A stretch of 64,000 bases of DNA from NCBI GenBank assembly GCA_963576735.1, contig CAUYWD010000170.1, positions 1 to 64,000 on the forward strand, in the 5' to 3' direction. Positions 11,620-62,996 of the stretch are shown here, piece after piece (the first letter of the stretch is position 1; each line of letters begins with the position of its first letter). Under the pieces are notes generated by a model. That model worked only from the letters and a program-made list of their open reading frames with translations. It was not told the DNA's origin and made no database searches. This stretch comes from Bedellia somnulentella (taxonomy: Eukaryota > Arthropoda > Insecta > Lepidoptera > Bedelliidae). The position numbers and the translations under genes were made by a program.

Positions 11620-11634
11620 AAAAAAAAAAAAAAA

Positions 11635-30941: not shown

Positions 30942-30945
30942 CTGT

Positions 30946-32230: not shown

Positions 32231-32479
32231 TTTTTTTTTTTTTTTGTCGTGGGGAAATCCTCATGGATTCCCCGCTACTTGAAGGGTGCGGCGGGGATAT
32301 GCCGGACTCCTACCGGCTAAAACCCCACGGTGGCCATCTCACGTGCTTCGTTGCGGGGCATACGGGAATCGCCAGAGGCATGACGTCCGCGTGCCCCACG
32401 CACCACGCCTTTCGGCGAACATCTCGGGGGACCTTATGTGCCCCCTTTCACGCCATCTTTTTCAACGGAAGCTCAAGGC

Positions 32480-32733: not shown

Positions 32734-32772
32734 GGTTAGGTTAGGTTAGGTTAGGTTAGGTTAGGTTAGGTT
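32734..32772 (+). repeat. Telomeric repeat tract, ~7.8 GGTTA units
   Basis: 39 bp of perfect GGTTA repeats between the SART 3' remnant and short unit 1. Confidence 0.95.
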
Positions 32773-32781
32773 CCCCCACAC

Positions 32782-32860
32782 CCCCCACACGGTGCAGCCT
32801 TGTCGTGGCGTGGGGGCTCAGTAGCCCCGGACTAGCCATCCGGGGTGAAGCTAATGCACC
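32782..32860 (+). ncRNA. HDV-like self-cleaving ribozyme (short unit 1)
   Basis: Pairings in the nested double-pseudoknot order: P1 CCCCCAC with GTGGGGG, P2 GGTGCA with TGCACC, P3 GCC with GGC around loop TTGTCGT, and P4 CCCCGG with CCGGGG. The P4-P2 joining strand is GAAGCTAA, whose C is the candidate catalytic base. Expected cleavage is 5' of the first C of P1. HDV-like ribozymes are known at the 5' ends of SART elements. Here nine extra bases separate it from the telomeric repeat. Confidence 0.78.
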
Positions 32861-33265
32861 GAGGTGGCGTCGCTCCCAGTATCCGTCTCATTAGGAGAGG
32901 GGACAGGGGAAGCGACGCAAATCGTAACCCTAGCAACAGTTGTAGCCGCTGTTGCTGGGACCGAGGGCCTTGCCGTCACTGGCAGGTCGCGAGGAGTCAA
33001 CCTCTATAAAAAATCGGAGGAGAAAACCTCGTTAAAAATCATGGGGTGGGTTGCTCCCGTTTTCCTTTCGAGGTGTAGAGAGGGAACGGGAGCAAGAGGG
33101 GAACTCGTAACCCTGGCAGTATTGCACTACCAGGGCCGAGGGTCTTGCCGAGGTGTAGGCTTGACCGCGAGGAGTAAACCTCTATAAAAAATCGGAAGAG
33201 GAGTAAACCTTCCGCAAAAATCCGAGGACAAAACCTCGTTAAAAAATCCGTGAGGTGGTGGGCTG

Positions 33266-33518
33266 TGTTCGGTGCAATATCACCTAACACTGAACTCGTG
33301 GATTGTCGGTCATGTTCGGCTCCGCTCGGATTACAATGTATTAATTATTTAGTAATTATGTAGAATAAATCAGTGTGTTTACCGTAATCGTACTTACTGG
33401 TCACATTCACCTATCATTATCATTTTCATCAACTTATCATAGTTAAATAAATAAACAGAATATTTGGGTTTAAGCAGTGTATCATTGAACTATCATTATA
33501 TCATAAAAAGCCCAAACA
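33266..33518 (+). repeat. BEL/Pao 5' LTR (253 bp)
   Basis: Starts TGTTCGGTGC and ends GCCCAAACA. The identical sequence is at 41429-41681. Followed by TTTTTGGTCCTTCG, the likely primer-binding region. Confidence 0.93.
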
Positions 33519-33802
33519 TTTTTGGTCCTTCGAAAAATTAAGAACCTAGCGCGATTTGTTCATCAGTCGGACTCATCTCGCGAGTGACTTATCAAATATC
33601 AATCACTTAAGAACAGACTATAATAAAGTGTAGTAAAACAGTGCTGCGGGAAAGTGTTTAGTGTTAAAGTTTGGAGAGCAAGTGTGTCAGCATCTGAATT
33701 AAAGGAGCAGCAACTGCGGTTACGTATCATCTTTAATTAATTACGCAGCATATATCCAAGTAAGACTGTTCTTTTTATTCACCTATTCAGTTAACCGTTA
33801 AA

Positions 33803-41260: not shown

Positions 41261-41428
41261 TATACAAATAATATTTTTAAAAAAAGTGGTTATATTTTTA
41301 GACTCCATTTTAAAGTTTTAACTTCATCTTAATTTTAAGGAAAAATTGTTTATCACTTTGTATCATTTAGTCATCAGCTGCATTTCATTTCATTATCCTT
41401 ATGGTTTCTTATCTCGTATCCGGGAGCA
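41261..41428 (+). other. BEL/Pao 3' non-coding region and polypurine tract
   Basis: AT-rich, no ORF. CCGGGAGCA (41420-41428) abuts the 3' LTR and is the probable polypurine tract. Confidence 0.6.
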
Positions 41429-41681
41429 TGTTCGGTGCAATATCACCTAACACTGAACTCGTGGATTGTCGGTCATGTTCGGCTCCGCTCGGATTACAAT
41501 GTATTAATTATTTAGTAATTATGTAGAATAAATCAGTGTGTTTACCGTAATCGTACTTACTGGTCACATTCACCTATCATTATCATTTTCATCAACTTAT
41601 CATAGTTAAATAAATAAACAGAATATTTGGGTTTAAGCAGTGTATCATTGAACTATCATTATATCATAAAAAGCCCAAACA
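41429..41681 (+). repeat. BEL/Pao 3' LTR (253 bp)
   Basis: Reads identical to 33266-33518. Followed by the second GGCTG (41682-41686). Confidence 0.93.
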
Positions 41682-42007
41682 GGCTGCGACCGGCGGGTTG
41701 CAGTCTGCTACTCTGCAAGGAGAACCTCGAGGGGGCGGGCGTTTGGAACTTGTGGCCCAAACGTCTGCGGTGCTGAGGAAGCACAGAGGGGAGTGGGGGA
41801 CTTCATGTCCCCCGAGATGGACGCCGAGAGGCGTGGTGCGCGGGATTGGAGGTAGACTGCCACGGGCGTTCCCACCAATCCCGCATCAAAGCACCGAAGA
41901 TGGCCACCGTGGGGTTTTAGTCGGTAAGAGTCCGACATACCTTCGTCACCCCGTCGGGTGACGTCGGATCCATGAGGATTTCCCCACGACAGAAAAAAAA
42001 AAAAAAA

Positions 42008-42011
42008 GGTT
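42008..42011 (+). repeat. Single partial telomeric unit GGTT
   Basis: Only GGTT separates the poly(A) of short unit 1 from the ribozyme of SART-2, the shortest junction in the array. Confidence 0.6.
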
Positions 42012-42091
42012 CCCCCACACGGTACAGCCTTGTCGTGGCGTGGGGGCTCAGTAGCCTCGGGCAATCCAGTCCGGGGTGAAGCTAATGTACC
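42012..42091 (+). ncRNA. HDV-like self-cleaving ribozyme (SART-2)
   Basis: P1 CCCCCAC/GTGGGGG, P3 GCC/GGC, P4 CCTCGG/CCGGGG (one G-T wobble), joining GAAGCTAA. P2 is GGTACA/TGTACC here and GGTGCA/TGCACC in the short units: both strands change together, which supports the pairing. It sits exactly at the GGTT border. Confidence 0.82.
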
Positions 42092-42499
42092 AAAAGTCCG
42101 CTTCTCTCCTCTGCTTCCAGAGCGAGCAGTAAGCGGACGGGAAGTCGTGGCACATTCTGATGTGCACGGCTTAGCCCCAGCGTTTGTCCACATTGGGCGG
42201 CTGGGGCGGGTGTTAGAACCTGGCGTCTGTGTCGCATCGGTCGGCCAGGTTCTGTCTTTGTGGGGCGGCAGTGTCTTCATGATACTGCCGGCCAAACCGT
42301 AAGTCTACTTCGGTGGGAACGGGGGCTCAGGCCACTGAGGTCTGGGCTGCGAGGAAGAAAACCTCTATAAAAAATTACCCTAATCCGAAGGTCAGCGTGC
42401 CGAGGGGATGAGTGTCTGGAGGGGGTCCAGTGCCTAGCGCAGGGGATGGGGGGGTTAAGCTCGCTGGTAGGCCGAGGGTAAAGCCTACCAAAAACTAAT

Positions 42500-44641
42500 A
42501 TGAATAAGGAAATTTTGAAGAGTATTACCCAGGTGGGTCCCCGAAAGGGGGAATCCCACCCTTCCGCTTCTGCGGAAGGCGCCCCCGCGTATTCTGGGGG
42601 GGGCAAAAACTTCCAAACCAACGACCAAAGCAAACGATTAACGGATTCCGATTTTAGTGATGAGGGGATGAGCGATTCATCAATGAAGACTGCAGGTAGC
42701 TCGAATAGCTTCTTCGATCTTCTAAGAAAGCGACGAGCTGGGAGCGGACTGAGTGTCTCAGACTCCGATGGCAGTGTCGAAACTTCCTTTGCTGGTAGCA
42801 CAGTACCACCGAAAAAAGGCCGCGGAAGACTTCCTTCCACAGGTCAATACATAGGCGTTGGCAAGGCAAGGGCTGATGCAAGAGCAGCGCGAAATCAGTT
42901 CTTACGGCAAGAGCAGATAGTAACGGAACAGGAGGATATAAGCCAGCGAGCCAACCGTAATGCAGCTCAGAAAGAAAAAACGCAGGCCTCGACAGCCCTA
43001 AGTGCGAAAAATTCGGCTGCAGAATTAGCTCAGACTGTCGAAGAGGGGGTCTCGAAAATATTGGAAGTAGCCAAGAGATCGGGAAATTTAAAAGGTACTT
43101 TTGTAAGGGACCTTAAGAATGCGGCGGAAAAAATTCTGCATCATAATGAACTTCTCAAGGAGTGTTCATCTTCTGATGAAGTTATAAAGTTGCAGGAAGA
43201 GCTCTCCCGGCAAAAGGAGGAAAATCAAAGGATAAAAGCCGATAACGCTAGCTTAGCTAGCCAAATGGATGCTCTGCGGATGGAATTGGCGGAAATGAGG
43301 GTAAAAATTAGCGGCATTAGCTCATCCTCGGAGAAAACATCCTCGCCAGATGAAAACTTAGCTCGTGCAATCATGGTTCAAGTAGGAACCATGGTTAACG
43401 CCAGACTTGAGGCACTGGAAGGCCGTCTCCTTCCAGAAAAACGGATTCGCCCACCGTTGGCTGCAGATGGAGTAACCTCAAAGCTGGTAGCAAACGCTGC
43501 ACCACAAAGAAAGAGTACATCTGTAGCTAAAGAGACCCAACAAAAAACGGCGGAAAAGGGCAAGGGCAAAGGCCAGGGTAAGAAAACTGCTAAAGTATCC
43601 TCACCAGAAGTGAGCCTACAAGAAGTAGCCCAACCTCTGGGTCCTCGAGCTGCGGATTTGCAACCTGTTCCCGGCCCTTCTTCAGGGGACGCAGTAGAGT
43701 CCTGGGCGACTGTGGTCCGGCGGGGCAAGAAGCGGTCCACAAAGGATGTTCCAGCGAAAGACCGTCAGCCGACCAAAAACAAAGCGGCATCAAAGAAGTT
43801 ACGAGTCCCTCGTACTTCAGCAGTAATAGTTACGCTTCAAGAACAAGCTTGTGAGTCTGGTCTTACTTACAAGCAAATTATGACTGAAGCAAGGCAAAAG
43901 TTGGACCTGCCAGGCTTAGGAATGGGGCCCTTGCGTATGCGGACAGCATTAACTGGGGCTCGAAAACTAGAGGTAGGTGGTGAGAGCTCCTCTCAGAAGG
44001 CGGACGTTCTTGCGGCGAAATTAAGAGAAGTTTTTGATGCCAGTATGGTGAAAATTTCTAGGCCATCAAAACTGGAAGACCTACGTCTTGTCGGCCTAGA
44101 CGATTCAGTCTCTGTAGAAGAAGTGAGAGTCGTCATTGCAACTGCTGCTGATTGCTCCACATCAGACTTAAAGGTGGGGCAGATAACGGAAGGACAACGC
44201 GGATTGTGTTCTGTTCACATTAGGTGTCCAACCGTTACTGCCAAGAAACTATTGCAGTTGAAGGCGCCAGAAATCGGTTACGGAACGGCTAGGGTGCAGC
44301 TTCTTTCAAAGAAAGAGCTACGCTGCTATAAATGCCTCGAACCTGGCCATGTACGTGCGCAGTGCTAGTCGGAAATAGACCGTAGCAACATTTGCTACCG
44401 TTGCGGTCAGCCAGACCACATTGCTAGGGAATGTGGGGCTAAACCTAGCTGCCCCGTTTGCAAAGCCGCCAATAAGCCAGCGGATCATACTGTTGGTGCA
44501 AAAGCCTGCTCTTCGAATAAAAAGAAGAGAGGAGGCACGACAAGAGCAGGAACAGGGTACCAAAGCCCTGACAAGTCTAATCGCTTACCAAGAAATGGTG
44601 GCGATAAAAGATCTGAGGCGGAACCCATGGTCATAAGTTAG
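42500..44641 (+). pseudogene. SART-2 ORF1 (Gag-like, one premature stop)
   Basis: Starts at ATG 42500. Long charged and coiled-coil region (~residues 190-290), AIMVQVGTMVNARLEALE (~294), a Lys/Gly-rich linker, ESWATVVRRGKK (~403), a central RRM-like fold region and CCHC knuckles. The first knuckle CYKCLEPGHVRAQC is followed at once by TAG (44366-44368). The same frame continues with CYRCGQPDHIAREC and a third finger to TAG 44639-44641. Truncation would remove two of the three knuckles. ORF2 starts 3 bp later (TAGTGATG), so the tight TAATG overlap seen in SART-1 is relaxed here. Confidence 0.88.
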
Positions 44642-44643
44642 TG

Positions 44644-46069
44644 ATGGCTATGCGGTTCCTACAGGTGAACCTTAACCACTGCGCCACTGCCCAAGACCTG
44701 TTCTTTCAAAGCATGGCGGAGTGGTTAATAAACATTGGAGTGGTCTCGGAGCCATATTTCGTCCCCGATGGGGTAAATTGGGTGTCGGATCTTTACGGCG
44801 TCGCTGCAATAACGGTCAGCAGATCTTCAGGACTGCTGCTGGAAGAAGTGACCCGGGGTTGGAGGTTCGTGGTGGCTCGCATCGGAGAAATTGTCGTAGT
44901 GTCAATCTACTTCTCCGCTAACGATCCACTTTCCGACTTCGAGGTGTTTCTGCAAGATCTAGAAGCAGTAGTCCTTCAGCGCCGTCCTCGGCAGGTTTTG
45001 ATTGCCGGGGACTTTAACGCTAAGTCAGTGGTTTGGGGATCCCCGGCAACGGAACCTTTCGGACACGCCGTTGTTGAATGGGCGACGCCCACTGGAATGG
45101 CTGTCGCTAACACGGGTTCGACACCAACATGTGTTAGGCTTAACGGGAGTTCGATCGTCGATCTGACTTTCGCTACTCCCGGTCTCTGGGCCCTAATTAA
45201 GGGCTGGAGGGTCATCACTGACGTGGAGACATACTCTGACCACCGATATATCCGGTTTGATGTCTCTACGTCTCGTGAAGCCACCTCATCAGGCGGCTCA
45301 TCGGCAAACGGGGGCCCAAGATGGGCCCTCAGCAGGCTGGATAAAGAACTAATGGCCGAAGCAGCCATTGTCCAGTCCTGGTCTGCACCGCCTGACTTTG
45401 CCAATGACATCATGGCTGAGGTGGCCTGGTTTAGTGGGGCCCTCACAGAGATATGCGACGCGTCCATGCCCCGGGCGGGACCAATGGCTCCAAGGAGACA
45501 AGTTCACTGGTGGTCTGCCGAAGTTGCTCAGCTCCGCCGAGCTAGCATGGCGGCGGGCCGCCGATGTCAGCGCTACAGAAGGAGAAGACGCCGAGAGACT
45601 GCGGCCTACAAGCAGGAGGTCGGGACAGCCGAGCGCGGGGCACAAGACGGTGGAGGCCATTCTCCCCGTCCTCACGCAGTGGTTGCAGCGAGAGCATGGA
45701 TCTCTGAGCTTCCGGCTGACACAGGTCCTTTCCGGGCATGGTTGCTTCGGTAAGTACCTGTGGCGGCTGGGTAAAGAGCAGGCTGCTCGTTGCCACCACT
45801 GTCTGAATTGCCCCGAAGATTCGGCGAAACACACTCTCGAAGAGTGCCCAGCTTGGGCTGGGGAGAGGGCAGCACTCCGGGCAAGCATTGGCCCGGATCT
45901 ATCCCTGACGGCCGTAGTTGCGGCCATGGTGGGGAGCCCCGAAGCGTGGGCGGCGGTGGCCTCCTTTTGCGAACACGTAATGCTTGCAAAGGAGGCCGCC
46001 GAAAGGGAAAGGGAGCTGGCGGACCCCACTGGAAGGGGCCGTCGTCGCCGCGGTGCCAGGAACCACTGA
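44644..46069 (+). pseudogene. SART-2 ORF2 with RT domain deleted
   Basis: ATG 44644. The endonuclease is complete: EPYFVP, GDFNAKS and SDHRYIRFD. After the basic stretch near 45590 the sequence jumps to the region just before the C-terminal finger (AAYKQEV), losing the entire RT (roughly 1.5 kb). A second small deletion follows near 45630. The C-terminal part (VEAILPVLTQWLQREHGS, CHHCLNCPEDSAKHTLEEC) is read in another frame to 46069. No RT activity is possible. Confidence 0.88.
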
Positions 46070-46458
46070 CGCACCGCGGCCTCGGTTAGGGTCTTCTAAG
46101 ACCACGGAGCCCCCATATGGCGTGCGTCGCCGAAAGCGGGGCTCCACGGGCAGGAGGCGCGCAGAGTGGGGCTATCTGCGCGCTACCAAACCCTGCCCAA
46201 GAAGGAGGCGCTTAGGTGGTCCTGAGCGTCCGTGACTACAAAAGTGGAAAAGGGGGGTTCTGTCCCCCCCAAAAGAAGGAATGCCGCGAGGCATTAGGTG
46301 TGTGGAGCCCGCGGCGATGAATTGCCTAAGGCCAGACGACCCGTGGGCTCTACAAATTCGCACCTGGAAGGACCACCGTGGGGTTTTAGTCAGTAGAAGT
46401 CTGACATATCCCCGTCGCACCCCCATGCGGCGGAGAATCCATAAAGATTTCCCCACGT
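46070..46458 (+). promoter_or_regulatory. SART-2 3' UTR with conserved terminal stem
   Basis: Non-coding. CGTGGGG (46377-46383) can pair with CCCCACG (46451-46457); an inner AGTCAGTAGAAGTCTGAC hairpin is enclosed. Poly(A) follows. Confidence 0.7.
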
Positions 46459-46476
46459 AAAAAAAAAAAAAAAAAA

Positions 46477-46495: not shown

Positions 46496-46575
46496 CCCCC
46501 ACGTGGTACAGCCTTGTCGTGGCGTGGGGGCTCAGTAGCCTCGGGCAATCCAGCCCGGGGTGAAGCCAATGTACC
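46496..46575 (+). ncRNA. HDV-like self-cleaving ribozyme (SART-3)
   Basis: P1 CCCCCAC/GTGGGGG, P2 GGTACA/TGTACC, P3 GCC/GGC, P4 CCTCGG/CCCGGGG, joining strand GAAGCCAA with the candidate catalytic C retained. It starts immediately after GGTT. Confidence 0.82.
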
Positions 46576-46884
46576 GAGTCGGCGTCGTTGCCAGGTTCTG
46601 TCTTGCGTTCGGTCCCAGCTACCCACATTGGGCGGCTGGTGATGGAGGGGTGGCAGTGTCTTCGTGATACTGTCGGCCAACCCGTAAGCCTACTTCGGTG
46701 GGAACGGGGGCTCAGGCCACTGAGGTCTGGGCTGCGAGGAAGAAAACCTCTATAAAAAAATACCCCAATCCCAAGGTCAGCGTGCCGAGGGGATGAGTGT
46801 CTGGAGGGGGTCCAGTGCCTAGCGCAGGGGATGGGAGGGTTAAGCTCGCTGGTAGGCCGAGGGTAAAGCCTACCAAACTAAAAA

Positions 46885-49007
46885 ATGGATAAGGAATTTT
46901 TAAATAGTACTACCCAGGTGGGTCCCCGAAAGGGGGAATCCCACCCTTCCGCTTCTGCGGAAGGCGCCCCCGCGTATTCTGGGGGGGGCAAAAACTTCCA
47001 AACCAACGACCTTACTGCATGTTTAATGGACTTCGATAATAGCGACGTGGCTGTGGAGATCTTGAGCGACAGCTCATATGCCTCCACAACAAACAGAAAT
47101 GGCGTAAGCCAAGAGAATGGGTCAGAATCCCGGCGTAAGCGGACTTACAACGGATCTGAACTAGGATCTTCGGATTCTGATAATGAAGGAGGACTCGAAT
47201 CTGATACGGACCGACAGCCGTCCATCTCGAGCAAGGCATCTGCCAAGAGGGGGCGTGGACGACCACCAACGACAGGTCAATATATTGGTATCGGAAAGGC
47301 CCGTGCGGAGGCTGCAGCAGCCAAGAGAGAAAGCTTTTTGCGGCAAGAAGCAGAAGAGCTCTCACAGCGAGTGGAGAGATACCATTCTCTCCAAGCGAAG
47401 AAAAAAGCTGCTGCGTCCGAGAGTAAAATACCAGCGACTGAAAAGTGTGCCTCTGACTTAATGCAGTCGGTACAATACCAGATCGGCGAGATTCTGCAGG
47501 TGGCACAGAAGTCAAGGGCGTTGAAGGGCACCTACATCAAGGTCCTCAAAGACGCTACGGCGGCAATAAAAGAGTCCTCTGAGGCTCTATTCGAACGGAC
47601 ATCCTCTGAAGAAACGAAGCGTCTCCAACAAGACAATGCTCGTTTGCGGGACGAGCTTCAGAGGATGAAAACCAATAACGAGAGTCTCCGTCAAGAACAA
47701 GTAGCCTTACGAAAGGAAATGGAGGCTCTTCGAACAGATGTGCAGAGCACACGCCCAAATATGGAGGCAGGGGACGAGCTAGCTCGTTCGATCATGGTCC
47801 AAGTTGGAACCATGGTCAACGCCAGGCTTGAGGCCCTCGAAACGCGTCTTTTGCCAGAAAAGCGCATAAGACCACCCCTGGCTGCGGATAAGAGAGTCCC
47901 TGGAACGGAAACAGTCCAAACCAATGCCAAGGCAACAGAAGGACTACCCAAAAACAAAGGGAAAGGGAAGGGCAAAAAATCGTCTCAACCTGCCCGTCCC
48001 CAACACCCTGCTCCTACTAATTTGGCACCGGTGGTTCCTTCTGTCTCACTGAGAGAGCCTGCTGCAGGTTCATCGAATGCCGCGCCTGCGGAAACATGGG
48101 CCACAGTTGTACGCCGAGGAAAACGGAAGGTTAAGGCAGCTGTTACCATTCCCGGTAAAGCTCCGCAAAAACCTGCAGCGAAGGTGACAGCAAACAAGCT
48201 GAAAGTGCCGCGTTCTGCCGCGGTGATAATAAGCCTGTGTGAGGATGCTGCCAGTAAAGGAGTTACTCTGGGCAATATCATGTCTGATGCTAAGCAGCAG
48301 ATCGACATATCGGCCCTCGGCATCGGGCCCATGCGGATTCGTTCTGCTCTTACTGGGGCCCGAAAGCTGGAAGTTTCCGGAGCACAGGCTCAGGAAAAAG
48401 CGGATACGTTGGCAGCTAAACTCCGAGCCGTACTGCCTTCCGAGCTAGTCAGGGTTTCGAGGCCGACCAAAACTGAGGCAGTGCGCTTGATTGGCTTAGA
48501 TGACTCGGTCACCGTGGCTGAAATTGTTGCGGCCATCGTAGGAGCTAGTGGTTGTTCTGGGACGGAACTCAGGGTTGGTCGAATCACGGAGGGAAACCGG
48601 GATTGCTCGGTCTTGGTTAGATGCCCTCTGGTTGCGGCAAAAAAGCTCGCCGAAGCAAAACGCTTGCAGGTTGGCTGGGGTGAAGTGGCGGTGCAACTCC
48701 TTCCACGGAGAGAACTGCGCTGCTACAAGTGTTTAGAGCCTGGCCATGTGCGAGCTACCTGCACTTCCGAAGTGGATCGCAGCAGTAACTGCTATCGCTG
48801 CGGTTCGCCAGGACATAAAGCGGAGTCTTGCTCGGAAAAACCATGCTGCCCACTCTGTAAAGCAGCCAACCGGGCATTCGACCATATGGTGGGGGCAAAA
48901 TCTTGCAAAGCAAAAACGCAAGTAAAGCGAAGACGGCCACAAAAAAGGTGGTCGCTCGTAGTTGCCCTGGAAATGGGCCAGTGGAGGAACCAATGGCCGT
49001 TAATTGA
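46885..49007 (+). pseudogene. SART-3 ORF1 (Gag-like, late frameshift)
   Basis: ATG 46885. Order: acidic/charged N-terminus, coiled coil (~residues 230-290), SIMVQVGTMVNARLEALE (~303), Lys-rich linker, ETWATVVRRGKRK (~404), RRM-like region, three knuckles CYKCLEPGHVRATC, CYRCGSPGHKAESC and CPLC...H. After the third finger the frame drifts, probably at the A run 48941-48946. The alternative frame ends PVEEPMAVN and TGA 49005-49007, overlapping the ORF2 ATG (TGATG). In the drifted frame the ORF runs on to 49500 over ORF2. The zinc-finger region is unaffected. Confidence 0.88.
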
Positions 49008-52000
49008 TGGCCATAAAGTTCCTCCAAGCGAACCTCAACCACTGTGCAACTGCTCAGGATTTGTTTTTCCAAAGCACAGCACAGTGGTTGATTCAAGTGG
49101 GGTTAATCTCGGAGCCGTACTTTGTCCCCGCGGGGGTGAATTGGGTGTCGGACCTAAATGGCGTGGCGGCAATCACAGTCAGCCGGTCATCAGGGCTGCT
49201 GCTGGAGGAAGTATCTCGCGGCAGAGGTTTCGTTGCGGCACGGATAGGGGAGATAGTAGTCATCTCGATTTACTTCTCCCCCAACGATTCCTTTGCCAAT
49301 TTGGAGATCTTTCTACAAGAACTGGAAGCAGCAGTCCTGCAACGTCGCCCTCGCCAAGTATTGGTTGCTGGAGACTTCAACGCCAAATCGGTGGTCTGGG
49401 GTTCTCCAGCGACAGAGCGCTTCGGCGAGGCAGTGGTGGAGTGGGCGACGACCACGGGTTTGGCCGTGGCCAACAGAGGTTCGACACCTACATGTGTTAG
49501 GCATAACGGGAGTTCGATCGTAGATTTGACCTTCGCAACTCCCGGTCTCTGGGCCCTGATCGAGGGCTGGAGGGTTATCACGGACGTGGAGTCGTACTCG
49601 GACCATCGGTACATCCGGTTCGAGATCTCCACGTCCCAGCCAGCCACCTTACCGGGTGGACCGACGGCAAATGGGGGACCTAGGTGGGCCCTCACCAGGC
49701 TGGACAAAGAAATGATGGTGGAAGCTGGTTTCGTGATGCCCTCACAGAGATATGCGATGCATCGATGCCCCGCCAGGGACCGATGGCTCCGAGACGCCAA
49801 GTGCACTGGTGGAGCGCCGAAATTGCTCAATTGCGATTAGCAAGTATGACGGCGCGCCGCCGGTGCAAAAGAAATCGAAGGAGGAGGATCCGGGACGAGG
49901 CGGAACAGCTTCGCCGCGTTGAAATATTCCGCGAGGCAAAGAAGGCCCTGAAGATTGCGATAATCAGGGCCAAAGAAGCCTCGCGAAGGGAGTTACAGGA
50001 GGCTCTAGATAACGATCCATGGGGGCGCGCCTACAGAATGGCTAGACAAAGGCTGCGACCATGGGCGCCCCCACTTACGACGAGCCTCCAGATCCACGTG
50101 GTGGAAAACGTGGTTTCGACCTTGTTCCCGGACAGGGGGGCGCATCAGCCTCCCGTAATGGCTCTTGAGCGGCAGCGTTCGGCGGACGAACATCTCGTCC
50201 CCGAAGTGACCGAACCGGAGTTGGCGGTGGCCATAGAGCGCCTGAAGAAAAAGAAGACAGCCCCGGGACTGGATGGAATTCCGGGGCAGGCGTGGGTAGT
50301 GGCGCTCAAACCGTTCCTGGAGGAGAGGTTTCGGGGCCTGTTCTCCACGTGCCTGGAACAAGGTGTGTTTCCAGAGCCGTGGAGGACGGGTAAACTCGTG
50401 CTTCTGCGAAAGGACGGGCGCCCCGCTGACTCCACAGAACCCTCAGCTTTCCGGCCGATAGTCCTGCTCGACGAGGCGGGCAAACTTTTGGAAAGGGTGA
50501 TCTCTGCCCGAATCGTCGAGCACCTAGAGGGAGCTGGTCCGAACCTCTCGGACCAGCAGTTCGGTTTCAGGCGCTGTCGCTCGACAGTTCATGCAGTTCT
50601 GCGGGTCCGCTCAATAGCGGACGAGGCGGTCTCCCAGGGCGAGGTGGTGTTGGCGGTCTCTCTCGACATCAAAAACGCCTTCAACACCATGCCCTGGTCC
50701 TGTTTAGCGGAGGCACTGAAATATCACGAAGTGCCTCCGTACTTGAGGAGGATTCTCGGGTCGTACCTCTCGGATCGGTTCATCACGTATCCGCTTCGGG
50801 AGGGTTGGGGTCGCCGCGAAATGTCTTGCGGTGTTCCACAGGGCTCAGTCTTGGGCCCGCTCCTGTGGAACATCGGCTACGATTGGGTCCTGCGCGGCGC
50901 CAACCTCTGGGGTGTCCAACTCACCTGCTATGCAGACGACACCCTAGTGACGGCCCGAGGAAAGACGTACAGAGAGGCCGCCATTCGCGGAACTGCGGGT
51001 GTGGCGCACGTGGTGCGCCGTATAAGGTCGTTGGGTCTAGAAGTGGCCCTGAACAAATCCGAGGCCCTGTGGTTCCATGGGCCTTGGAATCGTCCGCCGG
51101 TAGGGGAATCCGCCATCGTTGTGGGTGGCGAGAGGATTGCCGTCGAGTCCACGTTAAAATACTTGGGACTAACACTCGACGGCCGTTGGACGTTTCGCGC
51201 TCACTTCGAGCGTCTGGGGACCCGGTTGATGGTTGCGGCAGCTGCACTCAGCAGACTCCTGCCGAACCTTGGGGGCCCTGGGAGCGCGTGCAGGCAGCTC
51301 TACATGGGGGTCGTACGGTCTATGGCCATGTACGGCTCCCCAGTGTGGGCTGACGCCCTGAAGGGGTCGAATGCGGCGCTTCTTCATGCGCCGCAACGGC
51401 TCATGGCTGTAAGGGCGTCAAGGGGATACCGCACGGTAATGCTGCCTGCCTAATGGCGGGTTCAAAGCCGTGGGAGTTGGACGCACAAGTTCTCGCGTCT
51501 ACTTTCCACTGGCGAGAAGAACGGCGGACACAGGGCCACTGGCCCACGGATCGGGAAACAGCGGCCTATAAACAGCAAGTAGAGGCCGCTGCCCTCGAGG
51601 CATGGGCGCTTCGGCTAGGTCAGCCAAGCGCGGGGCACAAGACGGTGGAGGCCATTCTCCCCGTGAGGACGGCAGAACGGCAGTGGTTGCAGCGGGAGCA
51701 CGGATCTCTGAGCTTCCGGCTGACACAGGTCCTTTCCGGGCATGGTTGCTTCGGGAAATACCTGTGGCGGCTGGGCAAGGAGGAGGCTGCTCGTTGCCAC
51801 CACTGCCTGAACTGCCCCGAAGATACGGCGCAGCACACCTTAGAGGTGTGCCCAGCGTGGGACGTGCCGAGGGCGGAACTCCGGGCGGTCATCGGCCCGG
51901 ATCTCTCTCTGCCAGCCGTAGTCGCGGCTATGGTGGAGAGACCCGATGCGTGGGCTGCGGTGGCCTCCTTTTGCGAACAAGTCATCAATGCAAAGGAGGC

Positions 52001-52073
52001 CACCGAACGAGAAAGGGAGCTGGCGGACCCAACTAGAAGGGGACGTCGTCGCCGCGGTGTCAGGAACCACTGA
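49007..52073 (+). pseudogene. SART-3 ORF2: endonuclease, reverse transcriptase, zinc finger (two deletions)
   Basis: ATG 49007. Endonuclease: ISEPYFVP, VAGDFNAKS, YSDHRYIRF. A ~65-bp deletion near 49722 (compared with SART-2) shifts the frame. RT then reads from ~49727: TAPGLDGIPG, SLDIKNAFNTMPW, GVPQGSVLGP, catalytic CYADDTLV. A net 7-bp loss near 51435 shifts the frame again, and the C-terminal part (WLQREHGSLSFRL, CHHCLNCPEDTAQHTLEVC) ends at 52073. SART fragments A and B are its closest relatives here. Confidence 0.9.
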
Positions 52074-52450
52074 CGCCGCGGTCATTGGTAGGGTCTTCTA
52101 AGACCACGGAGCCCCCATATGGCGTGCGACGCTGAAAGTGGGGCTCCACGGCAGTAGGCGCGCAAAGGGGGGCTATTTGCGCGCTAGCCACCCTGCCAAG
52201 AAGGACGGACGCTCAAGTGGTTCTGAGCGTCCGTTTCTATGTATGGGTAATAGGGGGGTTCTACTCCCTCCTTTGTAGGAATGCCGTGAGGCAAAGGTGC
52301 GAGGGGTCCGTGGTAAATTACCTTCGGTAACAGAGGCCAGGGACCCCGACCATCGTGCACCGAGAAGGACCACCGTGGGGTTTTAGTCAGTAAGAGTCTG
52401 ACATATCCGCTGGGGGGAGCGACGGGGAATCCATGAGGATTTCCCCACGT
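52074..52450 (+). promoter_or_regulatory. SART-3 3' UTR with conserved terminal stem
   Basis: CGTGGGG (52374-52380) pairs with CCCCACG (52443-52449) around a GTCAGTAAGAGTCTGAC hairpin. The last ~80 nt match SART-2 closely; the upstream part is less alike. Confidence 0.7.
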
Positions 52451-52469
52451 AAAAAAAAAAAAAAAAAAA

Positions 52470-52478: not shown

Positions 52479-52557
52479 CCCCCACACGGTGCAGCCTTGT
52501 CGTGGCGTGGGGGCTCAGTAGCCCCGGACTAGCCACCCGGGGTGAAGCTAGTGCACC
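52479..52557 (+). ncRNA. HDV-like self-cleaving ribozyme (short unit 2)
   Basis: P1 CCCCCAC/GTGGGGG, P2 GGTGCA/TGCACC, P3 GCC/GGC with loop TTGTCGT, P4 CCCCGG/CCGGGG, joining strand GAAGCTAG. Starts exactly after GGTT. Confidence 0.8.
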
Positions 52558-53283
52558 GAGGTGGCGTCGCTCCCAGTATCCCTCTTATTAGGAGAGGGGA
52601 CAGGGGAAGCGACGCAGATCGTAACCCCAGCAACAGTTGTAGCCGCTGTTGCTGGGACCGAGGGCCTTGCCGTCACCCGCAGGTCGCGAGGAGTCAACCT
52701 CTATAAAAAATCGGAGGAGAAAACCTCGTTAAAAATCATGGGGTGGGTTGCTCCCGTTTTCCTTTCGAGGTGTAGAGAGGGAACGGGAGCAAGAGGGGAA
52801 CTCGTAACCCTGGCAGTATTGCACTACCAGGGCCGAGGGTCTTGCCGTGGTGTAGGCTTGACCGCGAGGAGTAAACCTCTATAAAAAATCGGAAGAGGAG
52901 TAAACCTTCCGCAAAAATCCGAGGACAAAACCTCGTTAAAAAATCCGTGAGGTGGTGGGCTGCGACCGGCGGGTTGCAGTCTGCTACTCCGCAAGGAGAA
53001 CCTCGAGGGGGCGGGCGTTTGGAACGTGTGGCCCAAGCGTCTGCGGTGCTGAGGAAGCACAAGGGGGAGTGGGGGACTTCAAGTCCCCCGAGATGGACGC
53101 CGAGAGGCGTGGTGCGCGGGATTGGAGGTAGACTGCCACGGGCGTTCCCACCAATCCCGCATCAAAGCACCGAAGAAGGCCACCGTGGGGTTTTAGTCGG
53201 TAAGAGTCCGACATACCTTCGTCACCCCGCTGGGTGACGTCGGATCCATGAGGATTTCCCCACGACAAAAAAAAAAAAAAAAA
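52479..53283 (+). mobile_element. Short unit 2: intact ~0.8-kb non-coding SART-derived element
   Basis: 805 bp from ribozyme to poly(A) (53267-53283), with GGTTA repeats on both sides. The first ~80 nt equal the SART 5' block and the last ~110 nt carry the SART 3' stem (CGTGGGG 53184-53190 / CCCCACG 53258-53264). The middle is not SART ORF sequence. It contains two related blocks built on GAGGAGTNAACCTCTATAAA-type motifs (52688, 52866) and ACCTCGTTAAAAA (52724, 52930). Serves as the reference for units 1 and 3. Confidence 0.87.
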
Positions 53284-53297: not shown

Positions 53298-53376
53298 CCC
53301 CCACACGGTGCAGCCTTGTCGTGGCGTGGGGGCTCAGTAGCCCCGGACTAGCCACCCGGGGTGAAGCTAATGCACC
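53298..53376 (+). ncRNA. HDV-like self-cleaving ribozyme (short unit 3)
   Basis: Same pairings as unit 2 with joining strand GAAGCTAA. Immediately after GGTT. Confidence 0.8.
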
Positions 53377-53972
53377 GAGGTGGCGTCGCTCCCAGTATTC
53401 CTCTCATTAGGAGAGGGGACAGGGGAAGCGACGCAAATCGTAACCCTAGAAACAGAAATTGAATTTGTTTATAAACTCTGACCAGCTCGCACAGCACAAC
53501 ATAAACAAATATACAAACTATTCACAAACAGTTAAGATCACATTGGAAGAACAGACCAGTGCCACAGCTTGAAAACAATTGAATCACACTACAAAGTAAG
53601 ATAATACGAAATTCAGTTCTCCTAATGAGATCAAGAGTTAATCAATTACTAACTAAATTAAGCTAAGAGAGCATTATAAATAAATAAATTCCACCGTGAG
53701 CGCCACCTAGTGTATACGCCGAAAACTTATATTAGAAGTGTGTCTGGCAAGCGCCGAGCCAGTGCACCATTGATTTATTGACTGCAGATTGCTCGCCTTA
53801 GTTCAGCTTTTTCCCACTAGATTACGTTAGTGGTGACGACACAAAACCGAACATCACTAAATAATTACGTAATTCGCTTCGCTCTGCGATAATCTGAGTA
53901 TTGAGTAACAACACTATTCTAGGCAGGGGTTGTACCACTGTATCTAAGGATAATCTAAGATTAAACACAACC

Positions 53973-55031
53973 ATGAGCTGCGGTGTGTGTAACTCCGTTC
54001 TGAAAGAAAATGAGATTGACGGCATTAAATGTTCAACTTGCCCTCTTAACTTTCATTTGGTATGTCTACAACTTACCAGAGATGAAGCGAGAAAGCTTCG
54101 ATCCCAACCCACTAGCTTAATCTGTCCTAAATGTAAGATGGATAACAAGCTAAAGATCAATGACAAAACTCCTGCCAGCCCTTCGGGGTTTCGGCACATC
54201 ATACCCCCTGCAACAACCGACGCTAATACCACAAATACAGAGTCCGCACGAGACGTATTGTTCCCAGAGTTACCATCCAATATAACTAAGGCATTTACAT
54301 CCTCTTTGATAAAACTACAAGATACATTCGATCACATGAAAGCTGAAATGGTTGCCTTTACTAAATCTCTTAATTATACGACCGAACAGATGAGTTTGTT
54401 TCAATCTGAACTCACTGATATGAAATCACAAATACAAGAACTTCAAAAATGCAGATCTGAGGTAACAAGTTTACGTGCAGAGGTCGCCGTGCTGCGTGAA
54501 GAACTTGCGATGCGCGAACAAACCAGCTTCCTAAAAGACGTCGAGATTACTGGTGTCACCGAACATAAAAACGAAAACTTGGACAACATCATAAGCTCTC
54601 TCTCATCCCAACTGCATATTGACATGGACCCAAGGGATGTCGACAGCGTTAAGAGAATCGGCCTTAGAGGTGGTGGCACCGGTGGAGCTGAACGACCCAG
54701 ACCAATCATCTTAACTTTAGTTAGAAAAGCCACTCGAGACCAAATACTGAAAGCTGCGAGAGTGCGGAGAAATCTCACTACCGAATCTGTACAAGTCCAT
54801 GGAACTCCCCGAAGCATCTACGTGAACGAACACCTGACCAAAACCCACAGAATCCTGTATAGTAAAGCCCGGGCAAAGGGTAAAGAACTGAAGTTTAAAT
54901 ATGTGTGGGTTAAGAACGGCAACATATTTATGAGGAGAAGTGAAACCAGTACAATCCAACGAGTGACTTCGGAGGCCTTTTTAGATAAGTTAGCTCATCA
55001 AAAAGACCAGAACCCCCCTCAGTGCTCCTAG
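53973..55031 (+). CDS. ORF1: PHD finger, coiled coil, FP-like C-terminal domain
   Basis: The frame is open from 53901, but ATG 53973 (ACAACCATGAG) begins exactly at the finger and is preferred: 352 residues. Residues 1-55 form a PHD-type finger (CGVC...C..C...H..C...C..C). ~120-210 is helical/coiled coil. KDVEITGV (~188) leads into a C-terminal domain (~190-345) with RPRPIILTLVRKATRDQIL, IYVNEHLTKTHRILY and FKYVWVKNGNIFMRR. This domain resembles the baculovirus FP/L1-ORF1-like RNA-binding C-terminus found in such ORF1 proteins. Intact; the decayed 1-994 copy has the same order. Confidence 0.88.
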   Translation: MSCGVCNSVLKENEIDGIKCSTCPLNFHLVCLQLTRDEARKLRSQPTSLICPKCKMDNKLKINDKTPASPSGFRHIIPPATTDANTTNTESARDVLFPELPSNITKAFTSSLIKLQDTFDHMKAEMVAFTKSLNYTTEQMSLFQSELTDMKSQIQELQKCRSEVTSLRAEVAVLREELAMREQTSFLKDVEITGVTEHKNENLDNIISSLSSQLHIDMDPRDVDSVKRIGLRGGGTGGAERPRPIILTLVRKATRDQILKAARVRRNLTTESVQVHGTPRSIYVNEHLTKTHRILYSKARAKGKELKFKYVWVKNGNIFMRRSETSTIQRVTSEAFLDKLAHQKDQNPPQCS

Positions 55032-55405
55032 TAAGACTTTATTTTTTTATTTCTGGATACTAATAAGTTTTCATTTTTACATTTTTTTTATTACTCTTGA
55101 ATTTGTCTTTAATGTTACTTTAAAAGTTAAACTTAGTCTTGTGCGTGTGTGTGAAAACCTAGATAATTTATATACTTTATATTTAATACATACTTCATAC
55201 TTAATATATACTTTATATAATTTATTAATTACTAACAAAACTAACATGAATAATAGTTGCTTAACTGACCACATATTGTTCTCTTTTCCCCATATCAACT
55301 TATCTCAATCGATATCAACAATCGGCTTAAAATTTTCTTTTACAATCTTAATACATGACATTAACTCTGACCTTACATCTATATATATATTGAGAATTTC
55401 CAAAA
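55032..55405 (+). other. ORF1-ORF2 intergenic stretch of the CR1-like element
   Basis: 374 bp, very AT-rich, with stops in all frames. No gene. An unusually long gap between the two ORFs, so ORF2 expression is not by simple overlap. Confidence 0.6.
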
Positions 55406-58369
55406 ATGGATAGTCTGGACTTTGAAAATGACTTTGATAGAACGCTAGACATTAACTGTATTGAAATAGGCTCAGTAGAGTCGTGCAGAGATTTTCTTAA
55501 ACCTAACCAATTTGTAATACTATCCCTTAACATACGAAGTGTTCAGAGCAATTTTGACGAATTCATACTTTTATTAAACCGGCTAAACCATGAAGTAGAT
55601 GTCATCTTACTAACCGAATGTTGGTTATCGGACTCAACTATCATCGGCGTGATTCCCGGTTATGAATCGTTTGCTTCCAAGCGTAACATAAACAAAAACG
55701 GTGGAGTGGTAGCCTTTGTTAGAGAATCTTTAAATGCATCATTCTCTGAGCCACTTATCTCTGATGCATGTAGTATAGTCATACAAATTCCCAATTTATT
55801 AACAATAGTTGGGATTTATCGTTCTCCTTCCTTTAAAAACACTCACAACTTTTTATTAGGTCTCGACAGCTTATTACATTCAATCCCCACAACTCAAGAC
55901 ATCATAGTGGCAGGCGATATCAATATCGACTTACTGTCAACAAACAGGTCTCAACATGACCCTACCGAATATCTCTGCCTCGCATCGTCTCATGGCCTAC
56001 GTCCAGCCATAACCAAACCGACGAGAAAGAAAGCATGTCTGGATCATATCCTAATCAGAACCCGTCTGCCTGTATTGGGTTTTGTATGTGAATCTGATAT
56101 ATCAGACCACGATCTTGTTATAGCTACAATTAACCGAGTCGAAATCAAAAAGGACAAAACACCACGCCTTAAGACCGTATTAGACTTCAAAGGAATTGTA
56201 AAAGATCTTGAAACCCTAAACTGGTCTCAGATATTAAATGAGCATGACTTGCAGACGTGCACCGATTCATTTATAAAAGTTTTAAACGATTGCATAGATA
56301 AACATAAATCTGTAAAAAAAGTAAGTAAATCCAGATACACACTTGAGCCTTGGATGTCCCCTGGTCTAATAAAATGCGCTAGACATAAAGACCATCTCCA
56401 TATGCTGGTAAAGAAACACCCAGAAGACATTATTCTAAATGTATCCTATAAAAGGTACAGAAACTTTTACATAACTCTCCTCCGTAACATAAAATGCGAG
56501 TATGAAAAGGACTTCCTAGACAGGAATAAGGGCAATTCGAAAAAGACATGGCAATCTATAAAAAAGATCTGTCACTTGAAGTCCAATCGATCCAATCCAG
56601 CTAAAGAATTGTTCAACATAACACAAAACACTGAAAATCCCCTGAATAAATGCAACCAATATTTCTCATCCGTTGGATCTAGTCTTGCGAAAAGAATACT
56701 TGACAAGATAAATATATCAGAACAAGAATTGGCTTCTTCAGTTCCTACAAACGATGGCCCCTGTTCCTCCTTTTTTTTGCCTCCAACAGACCGTGACGAA
56801 GTAGCTAACCTTATCTCTCTCATCAAGGAAGATAGTGCTCCTGGGATTGATGGAATAAGTGGTAGTCTAGTAAAGAAATTGAAACATCAAATAGCGGAAC
56901 CCCTTACCCATATCTTCAATTTAAGCCTTACTTCTGGTTCCTTTCCTAATGCATGGAAAACTGCCGCTGTATCCCCCATCCACAAAAATGGTCACAAAAG
57001 TGATCCATCTAACTACCGCCCTATTTCTCTACTGAGCATACTATCCAAACTGCTAGAGAAAATTGTAAATAAAAGGCTCGTTGATTACCTTGAATCGAAT
57101 AAACTGCTTGCTTCGTCACAATTCGGCTTCAGACGTAACAAGTCAACAGAAGACGCCACAAAAGCTCTCACTAGTAAAATAGTAAACAAATTGGATAGAG
57201 GACATAAAAGTCTGGTTGTTTTCTTGGACTTGTCGAAAGCCTTCGACACTGTTTCAATTTTAATATTATTAAGAAAACTAGAAGGATTAGGTATACGGGG
57301 TACAGCTCTCTGTTGGTTCAAAAGCTACTTAGAAACAAGAACTCAAGTCACCAGAATAGACTCACTCCAAAGTGATATTAGTCCAATAGATTTCGGAGTC
57401 CCACAAGGAAGTATCCTGGGGCCGACCCTTTTCTTAACTTACCTAAACTCAATCCAAAACGTTAGCCTTGAGAGTGCGGAAATAGTCTGCTATGCAGACG
57501 ATACCGCTATATTGTTCCACGGCTCAACTTGGGATGATGCTAAAACTGCTGCTGAGAAAGGTCTGGGTAAGATCAATGAATGGCTGCAACAAAACTTACT
57601 GACACTTAATACCCAAAAGACACAATTCATATGCTTTTACAAGACCGCAACATCGAGGCCAGACTCTTTGAACTCCTTGACCATGCACAGCTGCAAGAAT
57701 GACGGAAGTGGAACCTCACCATGTGACTGCAATAAAATATACCGGACTAAAGACATTAGGTACTTGGGCCTTATTCTGGACGAACGTCTAACATTCGAGG
57801 CTCACATAAGTAAGCTTGCTAAAAGAATTAGGAGCGTAACCGGTGTCATGAAACTCCTCCGAAGTTCTGCTGACATGGATGTTTTAAAGCAAGTCTACTA
57901 CGCGCTAGGCCAATCCCTGCTTTTTTATTGTATAGAGGTCTGGGGAGGTGCAGCGAAATCTGTACTTATCCAACTAGAAAGGGCGCAAAGAGCATTACTG
58001 AAGACTATGCTCCGTAAACCTATGACCCACCCTACAAATGAATTGTTCAGGTTGGCAGAAGAAGAAGAATCAGTAAGACAACTTTATCTACAAAAAGTGT
58101 GTCTAACCACACACCGAAACTTAGGTAAATCATCCGAATTTAACTTGCTTAAATCGAACCGAGTCCACCAAATTGTCATTCCTATTGTAACTACCAGCTT
58201 TGCTAAACGCACAGGTACTTTTGCATACGCTCACATATACAACAATTTAGTCAAAAAGTGTAATATTCAAAGAGATGACTCCTTACCGTTACTTAAATCA
58301 AAGGTGACGACACAGTTAAGCTCTATGGACTACGAGAGTACAGAGTCAATTATTAGCATATATCAATAA
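55406..58369 (+). CDS. ORF2: endonuclease and reverse transcriptase, intact
   Basis: 987 residues from ATG 55406. Endonuclease: LSLNIRSVQSNFDE (~34), LLTECWLSD (~68), VAGDINIDLL (~170), ISDHDLVIA (~231). RT: DSAPGIDGISG (~475), YRPISLLSILSKLLEK (~533), QFGFRRNKSTEDA (~571), motif A FLDLSKAFD (~608), B GVPQGSILGP (~663), C VCYADDTAILF (~693). The C-terminal region has no zinc finger. The frame is unbroken, all catalytic motifs are present, and ORF1 is intact, so this copy may be functional. Confidence 0.92.
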   Translation: MDSLDFENDFDRTLDINCIEIGSVESCRDFLKPNQFVILSLNIRSVQSNFDEFILLLNRLNHEVDVILLTECWLSDSTIIGVIPGYESFASKRNINKNGGVVAFVRESLNASFSEPLISDACSIVIQIPNLLTIVGIYRSPSFKNTHNFLLGLDSLLHSIPTTQDIIVAGDINIDLLSTNRSQHDPTEYLCLASSHGLRPAITKPTRKKACLDHILIRTRLPVLGFVCESDISDHDLVIATINRVEIKKDKTPRLKTVLDFKGIVKDLETLNWSQILNEHDLQTCTDSFIKVLNDCIDKHKSVKKVSKSRYTLEPWMSPGLIKCARHKDHLHMLVKKHPEDIILNVSYKRYRNFYITLLRNIKCEYEKDFLDRNKGNSKKTWQSIKKICHLKSNRSNPAKELFNITQNTENPLNKCNQYFSSVGSSLAKRILDKINISEQELASSVPTNDGPCSSFFLPPTDRDEVANLISLIKEDSAPGIDGISGSLVKKLKHQIAEPLTHIFNLSLTSGSFPNAWKTAAVSPIHKNGHKSDPSNYRPISLLSILSKLLEKIVNKRLVDYLESNKLLASSQFGFRRNKSTEDATKALTSKIVNKLDRGHKSLVVFLDLSKAFDTVSILILLRKLEGLGIRGTALCWFKSYLETRTQVTRIDSLQSDISPIDFGVPQGSILGPTLFLTYLNSIQNVSLESAEIVCYADDTAILFHGSTWDDAKTAAEKGLGKINEWLQQNLLTLNTQKTQFICFYKTATSRPDSLNSLTMHSCKNDGSGTSPCDCNKIYRTKDIRYLGLILDERLTFEAHISKLAKRIRSVTGVMKLLRSSADMDVLKQVYYALGQSLLFYCIEVWGGAAKSVLIQLERAQRALLKTMLRKPMTHPTNELFRLAEEEESVRQLYLQKVCLTTHRNLGKSSEFNLLKSNRVHQIVIPIVTTSFAKRTGTFAYAHIYNNLVKKCNIQRDDSLPLLKSKVTTQLSSMDYESTESIISIYQ

Positions 58370-58920
58370 TTATCAATAATTAGTTAATAAGGTTCTCCAT
58401 CTTATCTATCTCATTTATATTTATATACTCATATATTCAAATATATATTCATATATATATTCACACCATACATACAAACTATATATATATATTCTATTTT
58501 AGTTAGATTAGTTCATCACATTTGTCAATACTAACAAACTAACAACTACACACACACTCACACTCATAAAAAAAAAAATATAATATCAATGAAACCGAAT
58601 GTAATGTATAGATCTATTATATTATCATTATGGAACTCTCCTCTATTTTGCTTTGTTTATGTCCATCATTTTGTTTTGTGTTGTTCGTGTCTTTTAATTA
58701 TTATTTTTTTTTTCTTTTTCATTCTTTTAATTTTATTACATACTTTTTTTTTGATGTAACATATAATACTTTGATTAAAGCGCCTATTCCATTATATTAT
58801 ATAATTAAATTGGTTTCCCAAGGTACAGGCTAAGCCTAGTTTGGGAACCCCTGGAAATTTGTGAAAGCTGTAATTCTTTTAATAAATATACTTTTTACTT
58901 TTTTACTTTACTTTTACTAG
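58370..58920 (+). other. 3' UTR of the CR1-like element
   Basis: AT-rich with a TATATA microsatellite (58440-58495). AATAAATATAC near 58881 and TTTTACTTTT repeats end the element. A short open frame at 58630-58833 has no recognisable features. Confidence 0.6.
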
Positions 58921-59320
58921 TTGTAGCCGCTGTTGCTGGGACCGAGGGCCTTGCCGCCACTGGCAGGTCGCGAGGAGTCAACCTCTATAAAAAATCGGAG
59001 GAGAAAACCTCGTTAAAAATCATGGGGTGGGTTGCTCCCGTTTTCCTTTCGAGGTGTAGAGAGGGAACGGGAGCAAGAGGGGAACTCGTAACCCTGGCAG
59101 TATTGCACTACCAGGGCCGAGGGTCTTGCCGAGGTGTAGGCTTGACCGCGAGGAGTAAACCTCTATAAAAAATCGGAAGAGGAGTAAACCTTCCGCAAAA
59201 ATCCGAGGACAAAACCTCGTTAAAAAATCCGTGAGGTGGTGGGCTGCGACCGGCGGGTTGCAATCTGCTACTCCGCAAGGAGATCCATGAGGATTTCCCC
59301 ACGACAAAAAAAAAAAAAAA

Positions 59321-59359: not shown

Positions 59360-59361
59360 TC

Positions 59362-62841: not shown

Positions 62842-62996
62842 TGTTGAACTTTTATTTAAATAGTCTGCCTTCCATACGTATTCTATGCTCATGTACTCTG
62901 TGGTGTTCTTCTTTTTTATTAATATATATTCTCTATCATTCCGTGGTACAACGAGTGTTCTCATTTCTTATCCCTGATTTATTGATTAAGTCATCA
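62842..62996 (+). repeat. Probable Copia-like 5' LTR (~155 bp)
   Basis: Starts TGTTGAAC and ends CATCA just before GGTTATGAGGCCCAG. Only one copy in the window, so limits are approximate. Confidence 0.55.

Follow-up and report, generated by a model that had tools for sequence, protein, structure and literature searches.

The short units found in the window, by which we mean the whole 64,000-nt stretch of Bedellia somnulentella DNA analysed here, very probably belong to a family of non-autonomous retrotransposons that are short and non-coding and are moved in trans by SART, a telomere-specific LINE of the R1 clade. Their sequence shows a shared multi-copy lineage with exact ends, target-site duplications, insertion sites of the AGG type, a conserved 3' RNA fold and no evident coding capacity, and SARTs with long open ORFs lie close to them. 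The claim of the initial annotation that the window holds a non-autonomous element with SART ends, placed in telomeric repeats and forming one lineage, is supported by our observations. The positions of the units (U1, U2 and U3), of their parts and of the neighbouring elements are given in Table 1.

Table 1. Units U1–U3, their parts, nested insertions and adjacent SART elements in the window.
Feature	Position	Strand	Evidence or remark
U2, complete non-autonomous element, poly(A) included	52479..53283	+	805 nt, uninterrupted
U2 5' block common with SART, HDV-like ribozyme fold (predicted)	52479..52560	+	86–90% identity to 19 SARTs
U2 core, non-coding, with repeated hairpin/A-linker module	52562..53023	+	absent from SARTs examined
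U2 SART-type 3' UTR with poly(A)	53024..53283	+	similarity to SARTs
U2 four-helix 3' RNA structure	53181..53264	+	covariation score
U1 5' target-site duplication, GGTTCCCCCACAC	32769..32781	+	identical to 42008–42020
U1 5' part	32782..33265	+	98.1% to U2 over 484 nt
BEL/Pao LTR element nested in U1, not part of the system	33266..41681	+	LTRs, GGCTG, Pfam domains
U1 3' part with full 3' structure and poly(A)	41682..42007	+	96.9% to U2 over 326 nt
U1 3' target-site duplication; also GGTT and first bases of next SART	42008..42020	+	
SART element, internally shortened, 4,465 nt	42012..46476	+	
SART element, near full length, 5,973 nt	46496..52468	+	
U3 5' part	53298..53455	+	96.2% to U2 over 158 nt
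Non-LTR element nested in U3, not part of the system	53456..58918	+	endonuclease and RT domains in ORF 55406–58369
U3 3' part, 3' UTR deleted to last ~39 nt	58919..59320	+	97.9% to U2 over 374 nt, then 39 nt at 100%

All three previously annotated units of about 0.8 kb are present, U2 whole and U1 and U3 each split by a nested element. Poly(A) and then GGTT follow in 3/3 units, as had been described; the SART-type 3' region attributed to all of them is shortened in U3 to its very end, and the full 3' stem was rightly assigned to U1 and U2. The placement of the SART block directly after GGTT does not apply to U1, which starts at 32782 with the GGTTCCCCCACAC duplication in between. Neither ORF1 nor ORF2 of an autonomous SART was found in the units. 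The longest plus-strand ORF of U2 with an ATG or CTG start has 62 codons, and one CTG-started ORF of 117 codons overlaps U2 on the minus strand. GGTTAGGTT occurs 25 times in the window against 0.53 expected occurrences, and patterns of the unit match more than 100 times in the genome with 0 matches for the reversed controls; chance is excluded. The BEL/Pao element inside U1 has 253-nt LTRs whose identity indicates a recent insertion, and it is flanked by the 5-nt duplication GGCTG; its single ORF of 2,485 codons encodes reverse transcriptase, Pao peptidase, integrase zinc-binding and baculovirus F-like envelope domains.

Insertion sites were tabulated for 36 fetched copies having both ends: 17 start directly after GGTT, seven after GGTT and a few SART 5' bases, and 12 lie in non-telomeric DNA. 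Hence the units are not strictly bound to telomeres, and the earlier description of them as telomere-targeted fits most of the tabulated copies, which do lie in telomeric repeats, but not this third group. Exact duplications of 14–16 nt (one A counted) were detected by script in seven of the 12 non-telomeric copies, and inspection by eye added L049 with 14 nt and L051, whose 13 identical nt are followed by a mismatch, so that 9/12 carry duplications of 13–16 nt. The duplications of L058 and L059 are imperfect by eye, with no exact one detected by script; none was found for L012, whose junction may be rearranged. In mispaired control flanks (n = 132) the longest match was 6 nt. With the A beside the poly(A) counted, all nine duplicated sites start with A and six of them with AGG, which is the likeness they bear to the telomeric site TT^AGG. 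For SART1Bm, a nick between TT and AGG and the joining of poly(A) to AGG have been described (PMC7265360). As to the 5' boundary, nucleotide 1, the first C of CCCCCAC, is where 11 of the 12 copies in non-telomeric DNA begin, and L059 aligns from base 2, so the first base of the element is known without reference to GGTT. Since duplications are visible there, these copies define the insertion target, and also where the 5' end lies exactly, better than a SART surrounded by telomeric repeats can.

The few extra bases after GGTT could be thought to come from re-copying of the template at the 5' end. This explanation was rejected, since six of the seven copies concerned have exact 14–17-nt repeats of their 3' flank, which identifies the extra bases as target-site duplications reaching into a neighbouring element. 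U1 has the same arrangement: GGTTCCCCCACAC precedes it, and its poly(A) is followed by GGTTCCCCCACAC and the rest of a SART 5' end, which makes the repeated stretch a 13-nt target-site duplication (14 nt with the A) reaching into the 5' end of the resident SART. U1 is an insertion event of its own, into telomeric repeat just upstream of a SART, and the unit copies are separate insertions. Five interstitial units (L016, L053, L056, L058 and L060) lie in what looks by eye like one dispersed repeat, GGTCACATTTAGCTAGGTTAGGTT...ATGTATAAAACGAGCGAG; this repeat, which contains short telomere-like GGTTAGG stretches, may serve as an internal landing site.

These insertion data bear directly on the idea that the three units are copies of a single subtelomeric segment and that ectopic recombination or unequal exchange, not retrotransposition, has spread it. 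Telomeric arrays do recombine, the window itself contains a 1.55-kb inverted duplication (99.9%), and three copies on contig C1 are spaced at 5,017 nt; such an origin would, however, leave unexplained that flanks and poly(A) lengths vary from copy to copy, that the nine non-telomeric copies have private duplications of 13–16 nt where mispaired controls reach 6 nt at most, and that U1 has a duplication of its own. The private target-site duplications largely refute spreading by segment exchange, which we regard as extremely improbable, and retrotransposition is retained as the explanation.

The genome-wide search with U2 that the initial annotation had proposed covered 549 Mb in 486 contigs and revealed at least 46 near-full-length copies on 31 contigs, with 97–100% identity (the best 40 of 1,558 candidates were scored). 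In pattern searches allowing up to 3 mismatches, the 5', core and 3' patterns had 117, 152 and 158 matches in the genome, respectively, and the reversed patterns used as controls had none in any of the three cases. Among the 100 exact core matches listed, 76 had a listed exact 3' match 375–396 nt downstream (the distance was 396 nt in 60 cases), and four had one at another distance, including U1 with its BEL insert. The remaining 20 had no listed 3' match; seven of these are nevertheless units, namely U3, L021, L056 and four fetched copies with 91–96% identity to the unit, one of which is cut off at nt 558. Similarly, 76 of the 100 listed 5' matches had a core or 3' match at unit spacing; among the other 24, 12 lie on contigs covered by the listed core or 3' matches, and the three of these 12 that were read proved to be two diverged units and one chimera. 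The initial annotation had also raised the possibility that the interior is simply the UTR of one SART subfamily and the copies one-off deletions; this does not hold, as the copies have one interior in common, are separate insertions, and differ in that interior from all 21 two-ended SARTs read.

A sister family, B (about 650 nt, represented by L012:340-989), was recognised as well, and its junction pattern has 114 matches in the genome. Family B shares the second half of the core and has its own 5'-flanking and 3'-UTR segments; L061, judged by eye, is a unit whose 5' half is of type A and whose 3' region is of type B. Copy number is not equal to the number of insertions, because some copies have been multiplied within larger segments: three unit copies at C1:2828560, 2833577 and 2838594, spaced exactly 5,017 nt, reflect the tandem duplication of a longer segment in which a unit is contained. 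Exact 25-mers of the element had no match in viral or prokaryotic contigs, as expected for an insect element.

At the 5' end, the first ~83 nt of the unit are 86–90% identical to the 5' ends of 19 SARTs and can be folded into the nested double pseudoknot of an HDV-like ribozyme, comprising P1 (CCCCCAC/GTGGGGG), P2 (GGTGCA/TGCACC), P3 (GCC/GGC), L3 (TTGTCGT) and P4 (CCCCGG/CCGGGG). P1 begins at base 1, and the predicted cleavage position lies just before 52479. Pairs were counted in 26 five-prime ends (24 distinct): 98.4% of cells pair, compared with 36–52% in slid controls, and one pair of P2 is altered on both sides (G-C to A-U). Covariation does not rise above shuffles (the score was reached by 55/500, the number of cells changed on both sides by 253/500 and the percentage paired by 83/500) because the 5' block is nearly invariant. 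The Rfam model RF02682 (HDV-F-prausnitzii) aligns end to end, from the same base, with the 5' ends of two SARTs of the window, scoring 15.8 and 13.9 bits, far below the gathering threshold of 44; it gave no match on U2, and no Rfam family matched the whole window at the gathering level. A descriptor of HDV ribozymes found the five true sites in the window together with 15 other matches; it is thus not specific on its own and was not relied on. The L3 signature CCTNNNCGTGG occurs six times in the window, five of them in these ends, and is close to CCUCCUCGUGG, the L3 signature reported for R2 ribozymes (PMC5035012). On a strong match in fold, the 5' end is predicted to be an HDV-type ribozyme.

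The same near-invariance would also suit a promoter, and the 5' end might then be set by an internal Pol II promoter, the conserved block being promoter plus leader and not a ribozyme. In L1Tc, promoter and ribozyme are combined in one 5' segment. Promoters containing a DPE motif have been ascribed to SART1 and TRAS1 of Bombyx (PMC4748587). Against this, U2 and two SARTs were found to have neither a DPE-type match within their first 60 nt nor an initiator-type match within their first 20 nt, and the double-pseudoknot fold, CCTNNNCGTGG and the weak end-to-end RF02682 match from the same base favour a ribozyme. We consider a promoter-defined 5' end unlikely, and the predicted ribozyme is preferred.

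The 3' end is similar to that of SART over a longer distance. The 3' UTR of U2 is 75–77% identical to several SARTs over about 200 nt, and the last 110–119 aligned nt of the unit are 78–90% identical to 18 of the 19 SARTs. The structure formed there consists of a closing stem, CGTGGGG/CCCCACG, and three hairpins. It was evaluated on 38 distinct 3' ends of units and SARTs against 500 shuffles, none of which reached the 95.6% of cells paired, the 71 cells changed on both sides (24.8 in shuffles) or the covariation score. Pairs with changes on both sides numbered six compared with 4.0 in shuffles, a value reached by 29/500, and the 16 further pair types were below the 19.7 of shuffles. The 3' end of the units keeps the four-helix RNA fold of SART, and this fold is far better supported than the ribozyme. 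Two copies, U3 and L026 of the sister family, are found in telomeric repeats without most of the fold. L026 (383-797) is shortened, with most of its 3' UTR lost at a breakpoint different from that of U3, and both 3' deletions may be secondary.

Between these ends lies the core. In a BLAST-based catalogue of SART elements, a match of at least 60 nt to the core (unit nt 101–540) was present in none of the 21 SARTs having both ends. The 12 core-bearing elements in the same stretches all measure 650–805 nt, except two with nested inserts. The initial annotation described the interior as common to the units and not derived from SART ORFs. The core is not simply foreign, since it repeats a conserved SART 5'-UTR motif: the hairpin/A-linker GAGGA-AGAAAACCTCTATAAAAAAT (23–28 nt), searched with up to 4 edits, is present a single time in all 19 SART 5' regions, in none of 2,000 single-base shuffles of one such region, and four times in the core (52685, 52714, 52862 and 52921). 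We infer that the core is a rearranged and duplicated SART-type 5' UTR.

The units might be SIDEs strictly speaking, deletion derivatives of a SART subfamily that is extinct or outside those read, with the core as its 5' UTR. The repeated motif and the alignment of the unit with SART UTRs at both ends agree with such a descent, and internal deletion has been proposed as the source of SIDEs (PMC3414825). It is weakened by the absence of the core from all 21 two-ended SARTs, which are a minority of the SARTs of the genome, although the 17 of them that could be grouped represent eight groups at 90% in an ORF2 segment; moreover, seven odd pattern matches that were fetched proved to be six units and one chimera, and no core-bearing SART. 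We hold this origin to be about evenly balanced between true and false. It concerns origin only and is compatible with mobilisation by SART, our best explanation of how the units move. An origin from telomerase RNA was rejected by inspection, as the unit has no tandem CCTAA template.

Short length, lack of coding sequence, a LINE-like 3' end and poly(A) are also what a SINE would have, a transcript of RNA polymerase III with a LINE-derived 3' tail. However, no A or B box within 1 mismatch is present in the unit, only scattered sites with 2 mismatches, no tRNA match was found, and the 5' end is SART-like; a 7SL or 5S head gave no Rfam match at E values up to 10. Such a nature is hardly credible. 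As a Pol III promoter was not found, the term 'SIDE-like' fits and 'SINE' does not, and of the 'SIDE/SINE-like parasite' of the initial annotation only the first half, with its SART ends and missing coding capacity, can be kept.

As to a helper for the units, 16 of the 19 SARTs are open over 1,042 codons or more where ORF2 is positioned. The 3' end closest to that of the unit belongs to the SART at C8:20068098-20074268, with 89.8% identity over the last 117 nt, the next one having 82.4%. Independently of this, the same subfamily is involved in a chimera at C12:117365 down to about 114546, seen as two read stretches 1.25 kb apart (L063 and L064). This telomeric insertion starts with nt 1–260 of the unit and continues, across a joint with a 2-nt overlap by eye, in the middle of ORF2 of a C8-type SART. 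Its ORF2 is 98.1% identical to that of the C8 element (next best 81.0%), and it ends in a C8-type 3' UTR (97.8%) and poly(A), followed by telomeric repeats. When the ORF2 segments of 17 SARTs were grouped at 90%, eight groups resulted, and the C8 element was the only SART in the group of the chimera. The chimera has a simple explanation if reverse transcription jumped templates, from SART RNA to unit RNA; DNA recombination is a possible source too. The SART subfamily of C8:20068098-20074268 is the likeliest current helper; as one chimera records one event, it points to this helper and is no proof. Elsewhere, at C466:13972-83293 (L030–L037), a tandem array with units on its flanks comprises eleven SARTs of 6.15–6.37 kb, all in head-to-tail order, and in ten of the eleven the ORF2 position is open over 1,042 codons or more.

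The following cycle is likely, with ribozyme activity, the source of the transcript and the use of SART protein in trans as its inferred parts. A unit would be contained in a longer RNA that extends across telomeric repeats or across a SART next to it. The 5' HDV-like ribozyme would cut it just before CCCCCAC, fixing the exact 5' end, and the shared 3' UTR fold and poly(A) would be bound by SART proteins. The SART endonuclease would then nick TT^AGG, at telomeric repeats or sometimes elsewhere, and target-primed reverse transcription would yield a full-length copy with a target-site duplication of about 14 nt. For SART1Bm, mobilisation in trans is reported of a marker RNA that carries the SART1Bm 3' UTR (PMC7265360).

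The nearest known systems are the R2 SIDEs and R2/R1 hybrid SIDEs of Drosophila, which likewise have a ribozyme-type 5' end, the 3' UTR of an autonomous LINE and no coding capacity (PMC3414825). Like these SIDEs, the units use the target site of the partner, have R1-type duplications of ~14 bp and are not Pol III elements (PMC3414825). They differ in their target, telomeric TTAGG and scattered AGG sites as opposed to 28S rDNA, and in abundance, with more than 100 pattern matches here for elements that were described as rare (PMC3414825). Further differences are the ~460-nt core with its repeated 5'-UTR-like modules, which the units have kept, the partner, which is SART, and self-cleavage, which is predicted here. 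The units have several features of a SIDE, namely the putative ribozyme block of the partner's 5' end, the partner's 3' end, no evident coding sequence, and a TT^AGG-type site with a ~14-nt duplication; an origin by simple internal deletion would be a further one. Wherever the comparison can be made they work like a SIDE, and they are not a SINE.

Telomeric elements of other organisms offer partial parallels. HeT-A of Drosophila attaches to chromosome ends and is not known to require a repeat target. It is, like the units, a non-autonomous telomeric element relying on a partner, but it encodes an ORF1 protein (PMC4700185), whereas the units have no evident coding sequence. With SART1Bm of Bombyx mori, compared by its description, the units have in common the SART-type 3' UTR, poly(A) joined to AGG and the telomeric target (PMC7265360); they lack ORF1 and ORF2 and possess a core absent from the SARTs examined. 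MoTeR2 of Magnaporthe oryzae resembles the units in having the ends of an autonomous partner, MoTeR1 (860 bp and 77 bp are shared), a different interior, a telomeric location and mixed head-to-tail arrays (PMC7367193). Its orientation is the opposite one: MoTeR2 faces the chromosome end with its 5' end, and units located near such ends do so with their 3' end. It also belongs to a different type of LINE and another kingdom, with no ribozyme mentioned in the text available for it (PMC7367193); the units are alike in working but not members of that group. In agreement with the initial annotation, which knew of none, no SART- or TRAS-linked non-autonomous element was found in searches of the open-access literature, and no work on a SART ribozyme was listed there.

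Where telomerase is only slightly active in an insect, as in Bombyx mori, telomere maintenance probably relies in part on SART-like elements. A parasite of the protein and target of SART would tax this maintenance and, at the same time, lengthen chromosome ends with non-coding DNA. The units are also a compact natural substrate for studying what SART needs from its RNA. A more far-reaching scenario, which we put forward tentatively and with less than even confidence, is that of a stable guild of two parasite families (A, ~0.8 kb; B, ~0.65 kb) in which telomeric read-through RNAs cut by the HDV-like ribozymes would compete with SART for the end-extending protein, the core modules being amplified packaging signals for the ORF1 protein by which the competition is won.

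Several other arrangements were observed in the window. The best-scoring named relatives of the reverse transcriptase of its SARTs are lepidopteran. Positions 11371–12923 and 30942–32494 are 99.9% identical on opposite strands, forming a 1.55-kb inverted duplication with copies ~20 kb apart, and at 32217–32747 two SART 3' ends face each other in a 535-nt inverted repeat (94%). To the right of the telomeric repeats that follow U3, a second element with a zinc-knuckle-like sequence and an ORF of 983 codons occupies 59360–62863; it is apparently another R1-clade element, TRAS-like and cut at its 5' end.
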